From Candidatus Vecturithrix granuli (lineage in GTDB: Bacteria; Moduliflexota; Moduliflexia; Moduliflexales; Moduliflexaceae): a stretch of 34,431 nucleotides of DNA. A program made the translations under genes and the position numbers. The first letter of the stretch is position 1. Each line of letters begins with the position of its first letter. The notes under the pieces are model-generated. The model searched no databases and was not told where the DNA came from. It was given only the letters and a program-made list of their open reading frames with translations. Location: assembly GCA_000739535.1 (NCBI GenBank), contig DF820464.1, positions 657,273 to 691,703 on the forward strand. The letters are read 5' to 3'. Of this stretch, positions 1,042-9,878 are shown piece after piece.

Positions 1042-2487
1042 ATGAAAAATGGGTATCGGGTGATTATTTTACTCGTCGGCTTGTGTGCCTGGAACGCCTT
1101 TGCGATAGAATTTCCGCAACTCCAGGCGCGAGTGAACGATTATGCCGGGGTGCTCAGCACAGATCAGCAGCAAGACCTGGAAAATCTGCTCAAAGGATTT
1201 AATGAAAGTACACCCAATCAGATTTTCGTGGCGATTCAAAAGCGCATTCCTGACGGCGTAACATTGGAAGAGTATGTGAATGAACTGTTTGACCGCTGGC
1301 AGCCAGGGAACAAGGAACAAGATACCGGCGTGCTGCTGGCGATTTTTATTGACGACCGCAAACTCCGAATAGAAGTCGGCTACGGACTTGAAGCCTCCCT
1401 GACCGATGCAGCCAGCAAACTCATTATTAATAATGACATTGCTCCCAGATTTAAACGAGGAGATTATTACAGCGGCATTCGTCAGGGAGTGGAAAGCATT
1501 ATTCGAGCTCTTGCTCCGAACTACAGCATTCCCGGCGCTTCAGCGCAATCTGGCCATATTCAACAGCCGTCGTCACAAGTACGTTCCACAACGCCTTACA
1601 CTCCCCCAATTCCACAACATGATATGCTGTTGTGGGGCATGTTAGTGATTGGCGGCATTTTCACGCTGGTCATCCTGGGTAAACATAAATCCATGGTGTC
1701 TGCCTATCGGGGTCTGGAAGCGGTCCGTTGGGATCAGATCGACTGGACTCCGCCCAAAATTGTGCTATCAAATTTCCACAAGCCAGGTAAAATTTGTCAG
1801 GAACTCGATAGCATCGAAGCCGGGTTTTATCTGCAATTGCCGATTAAACGGATTCTGAGTGCCATGCTTGACGCCATGGTGCTGGAAGGCTATCTGAACG
1901 TGGTTGACGAAGCTCCATTACGAGTCGAAATTCTGCGCAAACCGGATTTGGAGCCATTGAGCGAATATGAACAACTCTTTTACGCTTCCCTGGCTGATGA
2001 CGGCGAATTGTCGCAGGAAGAACTGGAAGCGTTTATGAATTTTGCGGTCAAAAATATTCAAACCAAAGCCTGGGACGCGGATATTGAGGCTACGAAAGCG
2101 TATTATGCCCAACTTATAGAAAATTATGTGGATGAACGCGAACGGCACGCGCAACTCTATACCGAACTGGCGAAAAAGCATAATGATGAGGATTGGTATT
2201 ACTGGTATTACAATAGCCATTCTGCGTATCAGCAATATTATGCCTACGACCGTGATCCCTTCCGGTATGAGATTGCAATTCCGATTGATACCGATCACCT
2301 GGTGCAAGGGTCAGTTTCCACAACGGTGATCCCGGATTTGAACGCATGTCACGATGCCTGCCATTCGGCCTGTCATTCCGCCTGCCATTCGGCTTGCCAT
2401 TCGGCTTGCCATTCAGCGTGTCACTCCGCTTGTGTCAGCGGCGGCGGCGGTTCCTCCGGCGGCGGTGGAGCATCCGGCGGGTGGTAG
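1042..2487 (+). CDS. TPM-domain membrane protein with C-terminal Cys-His-Ser-Ala repeat
   Basis: A 481-residue paralogue of the preceding protein. The ATG at 1042 is preferred over an in-frame TTG at 1012 because GAGGAAAG lies just ahead and a clean signal peptide follows ([14 protein letters not shown]...AFA). Order: signal peptide about 1-21; TPM domain about 22-155 ([33 protein letters not shown]); Ser/Pro linker; membrane segment about 194-213; a cytoplasmic-looking region about 220-420 with a helical segment [12 protein letters not shown] that recalls the winged-helix part of DUF2207/YgcG-like proteins, a charged helical stretch and a Tyr-rich patch. Residues 435-466 are eight tetrapeptides (ACHD, six ACHS, ACVS), followed by the 15-residue Gly-rich tail. 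The next coding gene is a radical SAM/SPASM maturase, so the repeat is a plausible modification substrate; a metal-binding role is the main alternative. TPM assignment is firm, repeat function is inference. Confidence 0.88.
   Translation: [481 protein letters not shown]
2344..2439 (+). repeat. 12-bp coding tandem repeat, 8 units (ACHS)
   Basis: Eight in-frame 12-base units encode ACHD, ACHS six times, then ACVS. Codons vary between units (GCA, GCC, GCT, GCG for Ala; TGT and TGC for Cys; CAT and CAC for His; TCG, TCC, TCA for Ser) while the amino acids hold. That points to selection on the peptide rather than recent slippage. Confidence 0.9.
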
Positions 2488-2514
2488 GAACGACAGGCAT
2501 GTTATAAAACTACT

Positions 2515-2636
2515 GCTTTGGGACAGAAGCTTTTACTAACCGGACTTGTCGAACATAGTCGGACAAGTCTGAGCTGTCCGACAAGACCACCTCAGCCTAA
2601 GGATTTCCGAAGTACTAAAAATTTCTGTCCCAAGGC
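2515..2636. mobile_element. MITE-like element with 21-bp imperfect terminal inverted repeats
   Basis: The left end GCTTTGGGACAGAAGC... (2515-2535) and the reverse complement of the right end (2616-2636) agree at 18 of 21 positions, including an exact 11-base core TTGGGACAGAA/TTCTGTCCCAA. The interior holds further inverted words built on GACTTGTC/GACAAGTC and GTCGGACA/TGTCCGAC. It has no coding capacity and no clear target duplication, and no second copy is in the window. It could be a miniature transposable element or just a structured intergenic repeat. Confidence 0.45.
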
Positions 2637-2643
2637 AATCCAG

Positions 2644-2710
2644 GGATTTTATGTAAGGAGGATTCAATTTCGTGATGAAGCTGAGCTTCCATCCTCCCTA
2701 CATGAAATCC
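2644..2710. repeat. 19-bp imperfect inverted repeat containing a strong Shine-Dalgarno
   Basis: GGATTTTATGTAAGGAGGA (2644-2662) pairs with TCCTCCCTACATGAAATCC (2692-2710) at 17 of 19 positions. The loop holds a smaller GAAGC/GCTTC hairpin. The left arm contains AAGGAGGA, followed at 2672 and 2675 by GTG and ATG codons that open only a 14- or 13-codon frame. As RNA, the structure would hide that ribosome binding site. Confidence 0.6.
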
Positions 2711-8297: not shown

Positions 8298-8339
8298 ACA
8301 CTATCAAGAAGAAAGATTGTGGGAAAAGCGAATTAATTC

Positions 8340-8370
8340 TTGACTTTTGTGTTATTATCGCGTTTAATAT
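8340..8370 (+). promoter_or_regulatory. Candidate sigma70-type promoter for the subtilase gene
   Basis: TTGACT at 8340-8345 is followed by TTTAAT after 17 bases, or TAATAT after 19. It lies about 60 bases ahead of the subtilase ATG, and 42 bases separate it from the preceding gene. It would let the protease be expressed apart from the upstream unit. Confidence 0.45.
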
Positions 8371-8429
8371 TCTGTAAACAATGTATGTTACGTATTAACA
8401 CGCTAACCTTCTTCTTGAGGAATAGGAAC

Positions 8430-9878
8430 ATGGGACAATCGATCAAACGGATGACACGTATTCTAATCGGAGGGATGCTTTTACTTTGTATTTTCGGGCA
8501 ATCGAGCGTTGCTCAGATTGAGAGCTCGTCTCAACAGACATCGCGTCCTGGTTTCAGAGCCAACGAACTGATCATAAAAATTCGGGATGAATTGCCTGGT
8601 ATATCACGCAGCATGTCAGAGAACAGCATGGATACCGGCAGCCGTAATTTAAACGCACTAAACGCACAATTTGGCGTCACCAATGTTGAACAGGTGTTTC
8701 GATCAAGGACCGGGCGTCTGCTTCAACAAGATAGCCCATTAGCCAATGTTCTCCTGTTGAAGCTCCAGCAAGGTATTGACGAAAAAACGGCATTACGAGC
8801 GTACGCCAGCCTGGACGAAGTGGAATATGCGGAATTAAATTACTGGTATTATATCTTTGGCGTGCCGAATGACTCCTTCTTTTCGTCTCAATATGGGTTG
8901 TACAATTCCAGCAGTCAGGGGATCGATGCGATTGGCGGATGGGATCTTGAACAGGGAAATTCCTCGGTGATTATTGCAATTGTTGATACCGGCATAGATT
9001 ATACGCATGAAGACCTGGCCGGAAAAGTCATCAAAGGCTATGATTTCGTCAATGAAGATTTTGATCCGAGAGATGATAATGGGCATGGGACGCATGTTGC
9101 CGGGATTGCAGGAGCGATAGCAAATAATGGGCGCGGCATTGCCGGAGTGTGTCCCGGATGTTCCCTGTTAGCCGTGAAAGTGGTGACCGCCGATGGCGCG
9201 GGCGCCAATGCCTGGATTGCCAACGGTATTGCCAATGCGGTCAGTCTGGGAGCAAGGGTCATCAATTTGAGTCTGGGAGGACTGGATGCTTCTCAAACCA
9301 TTCTTCTTGCAGTTCAGCAGGCATATCAGCAAGGAGCGGTCATCGTTGCTGCCAGCGGGAATGACGGCAGCGGTGTGAAGCTGTATCCGGCCGGATTCTC
9401 AGAAGTTATCGCGGTTGGTGCGACCAATCAATACGGCAGTCGAGCATCCTTTTCAAGTTATGGCAGTCATCTGGAACTTGCAGCTCCTGGTCAGGCGATT
9501 TACAGTACTTTGCCGGGTAATGCCTATGAAGCCTGGAACGGCACCTCGATGGCCTGCCCGCATGTCGCCGGATTAGCAGGCTTAATCTTCTCATACGATT
9601 CGACGTTAACGAATGCAGAAGTCCGCCAAATCATGAATGGAACGGCTCAGGATTTAGGCGACTCCGGGCGTGATTCCTATTTCGGTTATGGGCGGATTAA
9701 TGCGCTTTCAGCATTAACTCAGGCTGGCAGCGGGGCAACCTATCCTACGCCAACTCCTGATACCAACCCCTATCCTGAGTATTCGACAAGCTGTGGAGAC
9801 AGTCTGGGCGGTCTATTTGGCCTGACAATTATGGGGTTGTGCTGGGTTAATTTCGAGCGGCGGAAACGGAAAGTGTAG
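8430..9878 (+). CDS. Secreted subtilisin-like serine protease (S8) with CTERM-like tail
   Basis: A 482-residue subtilase. The ATG at 8430 has GAGGAATAGGAAC before it and opens a signal peptide (MGQSIKRMTRILIGGMLLLC...SVAQ). An N-terminal prodomain-like region (about 40-130, RANELIIKIRDELPG) precedes the catalytic domain with D186 (IVDTGID), H219 (GHGTHVAG) and S373 (GTSMACPHVAG); AASGND supplies the oxyanion-hole Asn. After the domain comes a Thr/Pro linker, then C455-GDSL, a hydrophobic run of about 16 residues and a basic end ERRKRKV. That three-part end resembles C-terminal sorting or anchoring signals such as MYXO-CTERM-type tails, so the enzyme is probably exported and then anchored or trimmed. 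It follows the radical SAM cluster in the same direction and could be its processing protease, though its apparent own promoter leaves that open. Confidence 0.92.
   Translation: MGQSIKRMTRILIGGMLLLCIFGQSSVAQIESSSQQTSRPGFRANELIIKIRDELPGISRSMSENSMDTGSRNLNALNAQFGVTNVEQVFRSRTGRLLQQDSPLANVLLLKLQQGIDEKTALRAYASLDEVEYAELNYWYYIFGVPNDSFFSSQYGLYNSSSQGIDAIGGWDLEQGNSSVIIAIVDTGIDYTHEDLAGKVIKGYDFVNEDFDPRDDNGHGTHVAGIAGAIANNGRGIAGVCPGCSLLAVKVVTADGAGANAWIANGIANAVSLGARVINLSLGGLDASQTILLAVQQAYQQGAVIVAASGNDGSGVKLYPAGFSEVIAVGATNQYGSRASFSSYGSHLELAAPGQAIYSTLPGNAYEAWNGTSMACPHVAGLAGLIFSYDSTLTNAEVRQIMNGTAQDLGDSGRDSYFGYGRINALSALTQAGSGATYPTPTPDTNPYPEYSTSCGDSLGGLFGLTIMGLCWVNFERRKRKV

Follow-up and report, generated by a model that had tools for sequence, protein, structure and literature searches.

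Relation to described systems

Maturation by radical S-adenosylmethionine (SAM) enzymes is known mostly from short peptides that are cleaved. Precursors with a repetitive core, such as those with TVGG repeats, are likewise known as short peptides (PMC9062424). The locus described here, from Candidatus Vecturithrix granuli, points to a widespread form of chemical modification at the end of a membrane protein, in which the presumed substrate appears to be the permanent C-terminal part of a large protein. It lies in a stretch of 34,431 nucleotides (contig DF820464.1, positions 657273-691703, part of an 8.4-Mb genome), referred to below as the window. The conserved cassette appears to consist of three genes, which encode a membrane protein with a repetitive Cys-His-Ser-Ala (CHSA) tail (positions 1042-2487), a radical SAM/SPASM maturase (2791-4161) and another membrane protein (7341-8297). 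The first-pass annotation had placed six genes here; their positions, their common location on the forward strand (which holds for all features of the window given below with coordinates), the TPM domain of the first and the overlap of the maturase gene with an EEP gene were all confirmed.

The nearest published idea concerns TIGR04222 membrane proteins with Cys-rich C-termini, which PMC12452194 presents as proposed substrates of multinuclear non-heme iron-dependent oxidative enzymes (MNIO, DUF692). The two systems share a TIGR04222-type membrane protein with a low-complexity, Cys-rich C-terminus and an adjacent gene for a peptide-modifying iron enzyme; however, the enzyme here is of the radical SAM/SPASM type, the repeat is strictly CHSA, and the tail is predicted to be cytoplasmic rather than periplasmic as in PMC12452194. 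The window protein does not match TIGR04222, and eight of 30 homologues match it weakly (the best, at locus L024, with 33.1 bits against a cut-off of 43). No MNIO match (PF05114) was found in the genome of the window, the control search being positive in Caulobacter vibrioides, and the literature examined on TIGR04222 yielded no radical SAM partner.

Other families resemble the locus more distantly. The Hxs (His-Xaa-Ser) systems also have a repeated motif that contains His and Ser, together with a radical SAM maturase, a resemblance that had been pointed out initially; it did not survive the family cut-offs (the best score shown being 105.8 bits for HxsC4 against 500), and the window has one maturase and a repeat period of four. 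The ACGX (TIGR04340) and Cys-Xaa-Xaa-Xaa-repeat (TIGR04117) families are similar by name, with short Cys repeats and a radical SAM/SPASM enzyme, but the window enzyme reaches only 100.4 bits against the TIGR04340 cut-off of 400 and the window protein 13.8 bits against the TIGR04117 cut-off of 50, eight of 30 homologues matching the latter weakly (best E 2e-4). The sactipeptide and ranthipeptide maturases SkfB and CteB share with the window enzyme domains resembling the recognition element (RRE) of ribosomally synthesized and post-translationally modified peptides (RiPPs), radical SAM and SPASM-type domains, a Cys-rich substrate and an apparently open auxiliary-cluster site. The RRE, radical SAM and SPASM architecture expected of such a maturase was found in the window, whereas the named equivalog models were missed (StsB 107.6 against 625 bits, PapB 91.6 against 340); furthermore, their substrate is a short peptide, while here the terminal part of a large membrane protein takes that place and neither exporter nor protease is conserved. 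For the tail protein, the maturase and the third protein of the window, no fitting NCBIfam model passes its cut-off. The literature search found no report linking a DUF2207 or TPM domain with radical SAM, although an earlier description is still possible, and a search for the repeat string returned unrelated texts only. The CHSA tail and its maturase are thus apparently an undescribed system.

Distribution of the CHSA tail

GTDB genomes were scanned once at the DNA level for a pattern of three CHxA units, which gave at least 116 stretches. Chance frames were removed from these, and loci were kept if the protein carries CHSACHSAC; candidate L113 was discarded as a CHSA locus. This left at least 75 loci for a membrane protein with a C-terminal (CHSA)n tail, spread over more than 20 phyla of bacteria and archaea. 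The archaeal loci are in Asgard archaea and Thermoproteota, and the bacterial ones in Spirochaetota, Planctomycetota, Chloroflexota, Myxococcota, Thermodesulfobacteriota, Gammaproteobacteria, Acidobacteriota, Elusimicrobiota, Omnitrophota, Verrucomicrobiota and their relatives, Bacillota, Calditrichota, Nitrospirota and candidate phyla. The cultured sulfate reducer Desulfobulbus alkaliphilus DSM 24258 (L068) is a carrier, and with a cultured host and few genes involved the chemistry is directly testable. The proteins are about 450-930 aa long, with a conserved middle domain and the repeat at the C-terminal end, and their tails are of two subtypes, uninterrupted and interrupted.

From Asgard archaea to spirochaetes, planctomycetes and the cultured sulfate reducer the tail is kept almost letter for letter, most of its Cys and His columns being invariant in an alignment of 30 proteins; overall, the 29 homologues are 21-41% identical to the window protein. 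The CHSA units of the window are identical in protein and differ on average by 2.3 of 12 nucleotides, all silent (2.5 of 12, also all silent, is the mean over 76 loci), and because of these silent differences both a chance repeat and recent replication slippage were ruled out as the origin of the tail. The 18-base CHxACH pattern occurs eight times in the genome, six of them inside this tail and the remaining two as isolated pairs within short frames. That a low-complexity tail is constrained in this way, and in step with the enzyme clade (see below), suggests that it forms a defined chemical structure and plays a basic part in physiology.

Linkage of tail and maturase

A homologous radical SAM gene lies directly beside the tail gene in 48 of the 51 loci with at least 2.6 kb of downstream sequence. 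Tail homologues that routinely lack such a neighbour, which the first-pass annotation had named as evidence against a link between repeat and maturase, were looked for, and this count speaks for the link. At L047 (a Thorarchaeote) the enzyme gene is probably divergent and just beyond the examined sequence, provided that contig C4 represents the same record; L021 and L088 also have a divergent arrangement. The second exception, L099, comes from a genome whose assembly is scaffolded and contains N gaps; its radical SAM gene sits elsewhere, next to the third gene. The third, L026, is a second copy in a metagenome-assembled genome (MAG) whose other copy has the enzyme. This Myxococcales MAG encodes two CHSA proteins (L026 and L033) with a radical SAM gene adjacent to only one, and the second protein is possibly a second substrate in trans. 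At L078 the tail gene and the radical SAM gene are both at contig ends. In all 25 tail-bearing genomes examined there is exactly one member of the radical SAM subfamily, the next radical SAM protein among the matches listed scoring 177 bits. Accidental adjacency of a common radical SAM family was rejected, the subfamily occurring once per genome where examined and being absent from most genomes.

The reverse search used a profile of the enzyme on 247 genomes of the D. alkaliphilus phylum, 296 of Spirochaetota, 301 of Chloroflexota and 294 of Planctomycetota (about 1,140 in all). Matches of at least 365 bits adjoin a CHSA tail, except those cut by contig edges. Matches of 270-323 bits form a sister clade, located beside a DUF2207-like membrane protein with a different fixed tail, GGCACACACAGCACACAGGGR. 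This clade is tied just as strictly to its (CA)n-type tail, CACACAGCACACAGGGR, and its CACACAG loci (L171-L174, L188-L206 and L230) belong to Chloroflexota, Desulfobacterota and one Planctomycete, the last with reversed gene order and the tail GCACAGCACACACAGGGR. No NCBIfam model passes its cut-off for the sister-clade enzyme and protein of L173.

In a tree of 99 radical SAM rows, the labels CHSA, CACACAG and other need two changes, and none of 200 shuffles was as low; each tail type occupies one side of a branch, an outcome seen in none of 500 shuffles, and the phyla are interleaved. The enzyme phylogeny follows tail type and not species. As the CHSA rows were partly selected by their tails, the evidential weight lies on the matches found from the enzyme side, which fall in the same clade. 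The connection of repeat and maturase, first proposed from proximity and form in the window, thus recurs across phyla and in both search directions, and the sequence comparisons support the view that the SPASM radical SAM enzyme belongs to one system with the repeat tail.

The maturase and the third gene

The maturase (2791-4161) has a PqqD/RRE-like domain, a radical SAM core with the CxxxCxxC motif (C140, C144, C147) and a SPASM region; its start is most likely the ATG at 2791 and not the TTG at 2518. In Pfam the three parts match at E 0.009 (PqqD-like, weak), 5e-28 (Radical_SAM) and 7e-10 (SPASM), and among 44 family members they were found in 14, 44 and 43, respectively. The SPASM region contains seven invariant Cys, three upstream and four in the motif CX2CX5CX3C, which is present in 57 of 57 sequences with no conserved Cys downstream. 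Among solved structures, SkfB and PqqE are the best relatives of the enzyme profile; SuiB and CteB rank further down. Compared with anSME, one ligand of an auxiliary cluster is presumably missing, and the maturase would thereby have an apparent open auxiliary-cluster site like those of sacti- and ranthisynthases. An auxiliary cluster able to bind substrate has been described for these synthases, the clusters of SuiB and PqqE being fully ligated (PMC8326336).

The third cassette protein (7341-8297) is a membrane protein with four transmembrane (TM) helices and a C-terminal alpha/beta domain, and its assignment to the system, made at the outset, was borne out at other loci, where homologues recur after the radical SAM gene. 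They do so directly in 38 of 39 loci with uninterrupted tails and in none of 12 with interrupted tails, and among 296 Spirochaetota genomes the gene is present in exactly six, all carrying uninterrupted-tail cassettes. AlphaFold2 gave a confident model of the four TM helices and the alpha/beta domain (predicted local distance difference test, pLDDT, 90). Foldseek returned nothing at E 0.001 or better for this protein; VIA-align gave repeated but weak matches of the domain to YbjN and type III secretion chaperones (Z 5-7.2), a resemblance that is a lead only and suggests that the soluble domain may bind peptide in a chaperone-like manner. In several interrupted-tail loci, and only in these, a small TM/zinc-ribbon-like protein is encoded downstream (L024:5356-5844, L037:251-790, L085:3544-4074, L096:909-1445, L114:3269-3796); it is possibly the counterpart of the third gene.

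Proposed function and alternatives

With its conserved anatomy, the gene linkage in both directions and the way in which tail type and third protein vary together with the enzyme clade, the locus is probably a dedicated cassette for the modification of a protein tail. The modification, its thioether chemistry, the cytoplasmic location, the metal or redox use and the role of the third protein are what we infer beyond these observations. On insertion, the N-terminal domain of the membrane protein would come to lie outside, and its C-terminal domain and the CHSA tail would face the cytoplasm. This placement, on the side where the enzyme is, is predicted from a first helix that resembles a signal, a single TM helix and the positive charges that follow the latter; by the positive-inside rule, Lys and Arg counts point to a tail on the cytoplasmic side in 21 of 28 proteins. 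The cytoplasmic maturase may then recognize the tail protein through its PqqD/RRE-like domain and act repeatedly on the CHSA units. Thioether links from Cys sulfur to carbon, of the sactionine or ranthionine type, are the most likely chemistry, preferred because an auxiliary-cluster ligand is missing and a substrate-binding cluster has been described for sacti- and ranthisynthases. The product would be a stiff tail that stays tethered to the membrane and displays His and any free Cys, plausibly as a site for metal or redox chemistry and not as a released peptide, and the third protein, with its possibly chaperone-like domain, may bind or present it. A tethered functional tail is proposed because exporter and protease are not conserved. 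More tentatively, and with slightly more doubt than confidence, such radical SAM-matured tails may be widespread in bacteria and archaea, with enzyme and tail co-evolved in two or more pairs (CHSA and CACACAG), providing a new peptide-encoded metal or redox cofactor at the cytoplasmic membrane.

Several points weigh against this interpretation. That the tail is modified at all is something we infer, and the thioether assignment would depend on distant homology and the missing ligand, epimerization, C-C bonds or other Cys/His chemistry fitting equally well. The L026 tail gene stands without an adjacent radical SAM gene, the window copy is atypical in its TPM domain, inserted genes and repeat-filled gap, and the best Z of 7.2 for the chaperone-like fold compares with values of typically 7-8 for unmatched models.

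The tail could instead remain unmodified and serve as a Cys/His strip for metal, heme or an Fe-S cluster, with the radical SAM enzyme acting elsewhere in the pathway, for example in making a small molecule or a cofactor that the tail carries. The recurring CX3CH motif and the invariant Cys and His columns suit metal ligation, and the heme-pathway enzymes AhbD and NirJ are among the top NCBIfam matches of the window enzyme; however, these lie far under the cut-off (153 against 500 bits), most of the best solved relatives found by profile modify peptides or proteins, the enzyme has a PqqD-like domain of the kind that recognizes peptides, and the enzyme clade co-varies with the tail sequence as an enzyme would with its substrate. 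This alternative is unlikely, and no specific support was found for a c-type heme reading of CX3CH. Release of the tail as a classical RiPP, such as a signal or metallophore, is less likely still. A radical SAM/SPASM enzyme with a repeat core does recall RiPP clusters such as that in which TVGG repeats are modified by TvgB (PMC9062424), and a subtilase is encoded near the tail gene, but that subtilase is specific to the window, no recurring protease or exporter was found among 109 scanned neighbour open reading frames (ORFs), and the repeat terminates a membrane protein of about 450-930 aa with a conserved middle domain. It is very improbable that the repeat protein, the maturase, both phosphodiesterases, the membrane protein and the subtilase all act together, as their tight packing on one strand and the 4-base overlap might suggest, since the EEP, PLD and subtilase genes are without homologues at the 75 other loci, among which the other three genes recur, and the EEP has one partial match in 58 related genomes.

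The probable tail-modification cassette is thus best confined to its three genes, and the CBM21-EEP protein (4158-5660, overlapping the maturase gene at 4158-4161), the two-HKD protein with two PLD domains (5701-7323) and the secreted subtilase (8340-9878), originally counted as members and now ruled out as its core, are passengers outside it. The check proposed at the outset was whether Cys/His-tail proteins elsewhere lie near a radical SAM gene, a CBM21-EEP gene and a two-HKD gene; the first was found, the other two were not.

Local features of the window

The tail protein (1042-2487; 481 aa, ATG at 1042, stop at 2485-2487) consists of a signal/anchor helix, a TPM domain (PF04536, aa 31-155, E 4e-38; 130.6 bits for TPM_phosphatase against a gathering score of 22.1), a TM helix at about aa 193-227, a TIGR04222/DUF2207_C-like middle domain that is predicted to be cytoplasmic, the CHSA tail and a Gly-rich end. 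The tail is encoded at 2344-2439, as A-CHDA-(CHSA)x6-CVS. The repeat is as regular as initially described; it is not the true end of the protein, as 15 Gly-rich residues with GASGGW follow (2440-2484). This end is shared with a neighbouring TPM protein, is not seen in the other aligned CHSA proteins and seems to be the signature of a TPM-CHSA chimera. The predicted structure is uninformative for the tail and the TPM part (mean pLDDT 63).

TPM is not typical of the tail proteins and is present in one of the 30 aligned proteins, the window copy; the usual N-terminal domain is DUF2207-like, with a weak Pfam match in 11 of the 30, and TPM appears to be its local replacement. The likely source of both the TPM domain and the Gly-rich end is the tandem TPM paralogue at 137-1018, which is 47% identical in amino acids over 239 positions and 73% in DNA over 322 bases. 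Upstream of the tail gene are a LemA-like gene and more genes of the TPM type, as in LemA/TPM operons, from which the family differs in that TPM is confined to the window member and the others have DUF2207-like N-terminal domains. As the TPM region and the Gly-rich end are common to the tandem gene and a LemA-like gene is located upstream, the window protein looks like a local TPM-CHSA chimera. The LemA-like gene and the subsequent run of TPM-type genes span 4997-8788 of L207, equivalent to window positions -2776 to 1018, and a masked run of N falls within about -287 to 75.

The tail and maturase genes often overlap by 4 nt in other loci and are separated by 300 nt in the window. Because this gap consists of dispersed palindromic repeats, the separation is a local accident. 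The three adjacent repeats (2495-2788), resembling miniature inverted-repeat transposable elements (MITEs), are not part of the system, and about 40 partial copies, mostly 72-91% identical, occur elsewhere in the genome. In the window, the CBM21-EEP and PLD gene pair (4158-7323) sits between the maturase gene and the third gene, and neither this pair nor the subtilase or SPOR-domain genes have a homologue at any of the 75 other CHSA loci. When 67 ORFs upstream and 42 downstream were searched with Pfam and clustered by blastp, only lineage-specific sets emerged and no other neighbour was conserved across lineages. A family of about 130 aa is encoded upstream of the tail gene in Thorarchaeota, Aminicenantes and WOR-3 (L021:4518-4907, L053:3606-3992, L088:3206-3598, L093:4918-5304, L099:7414-7803).

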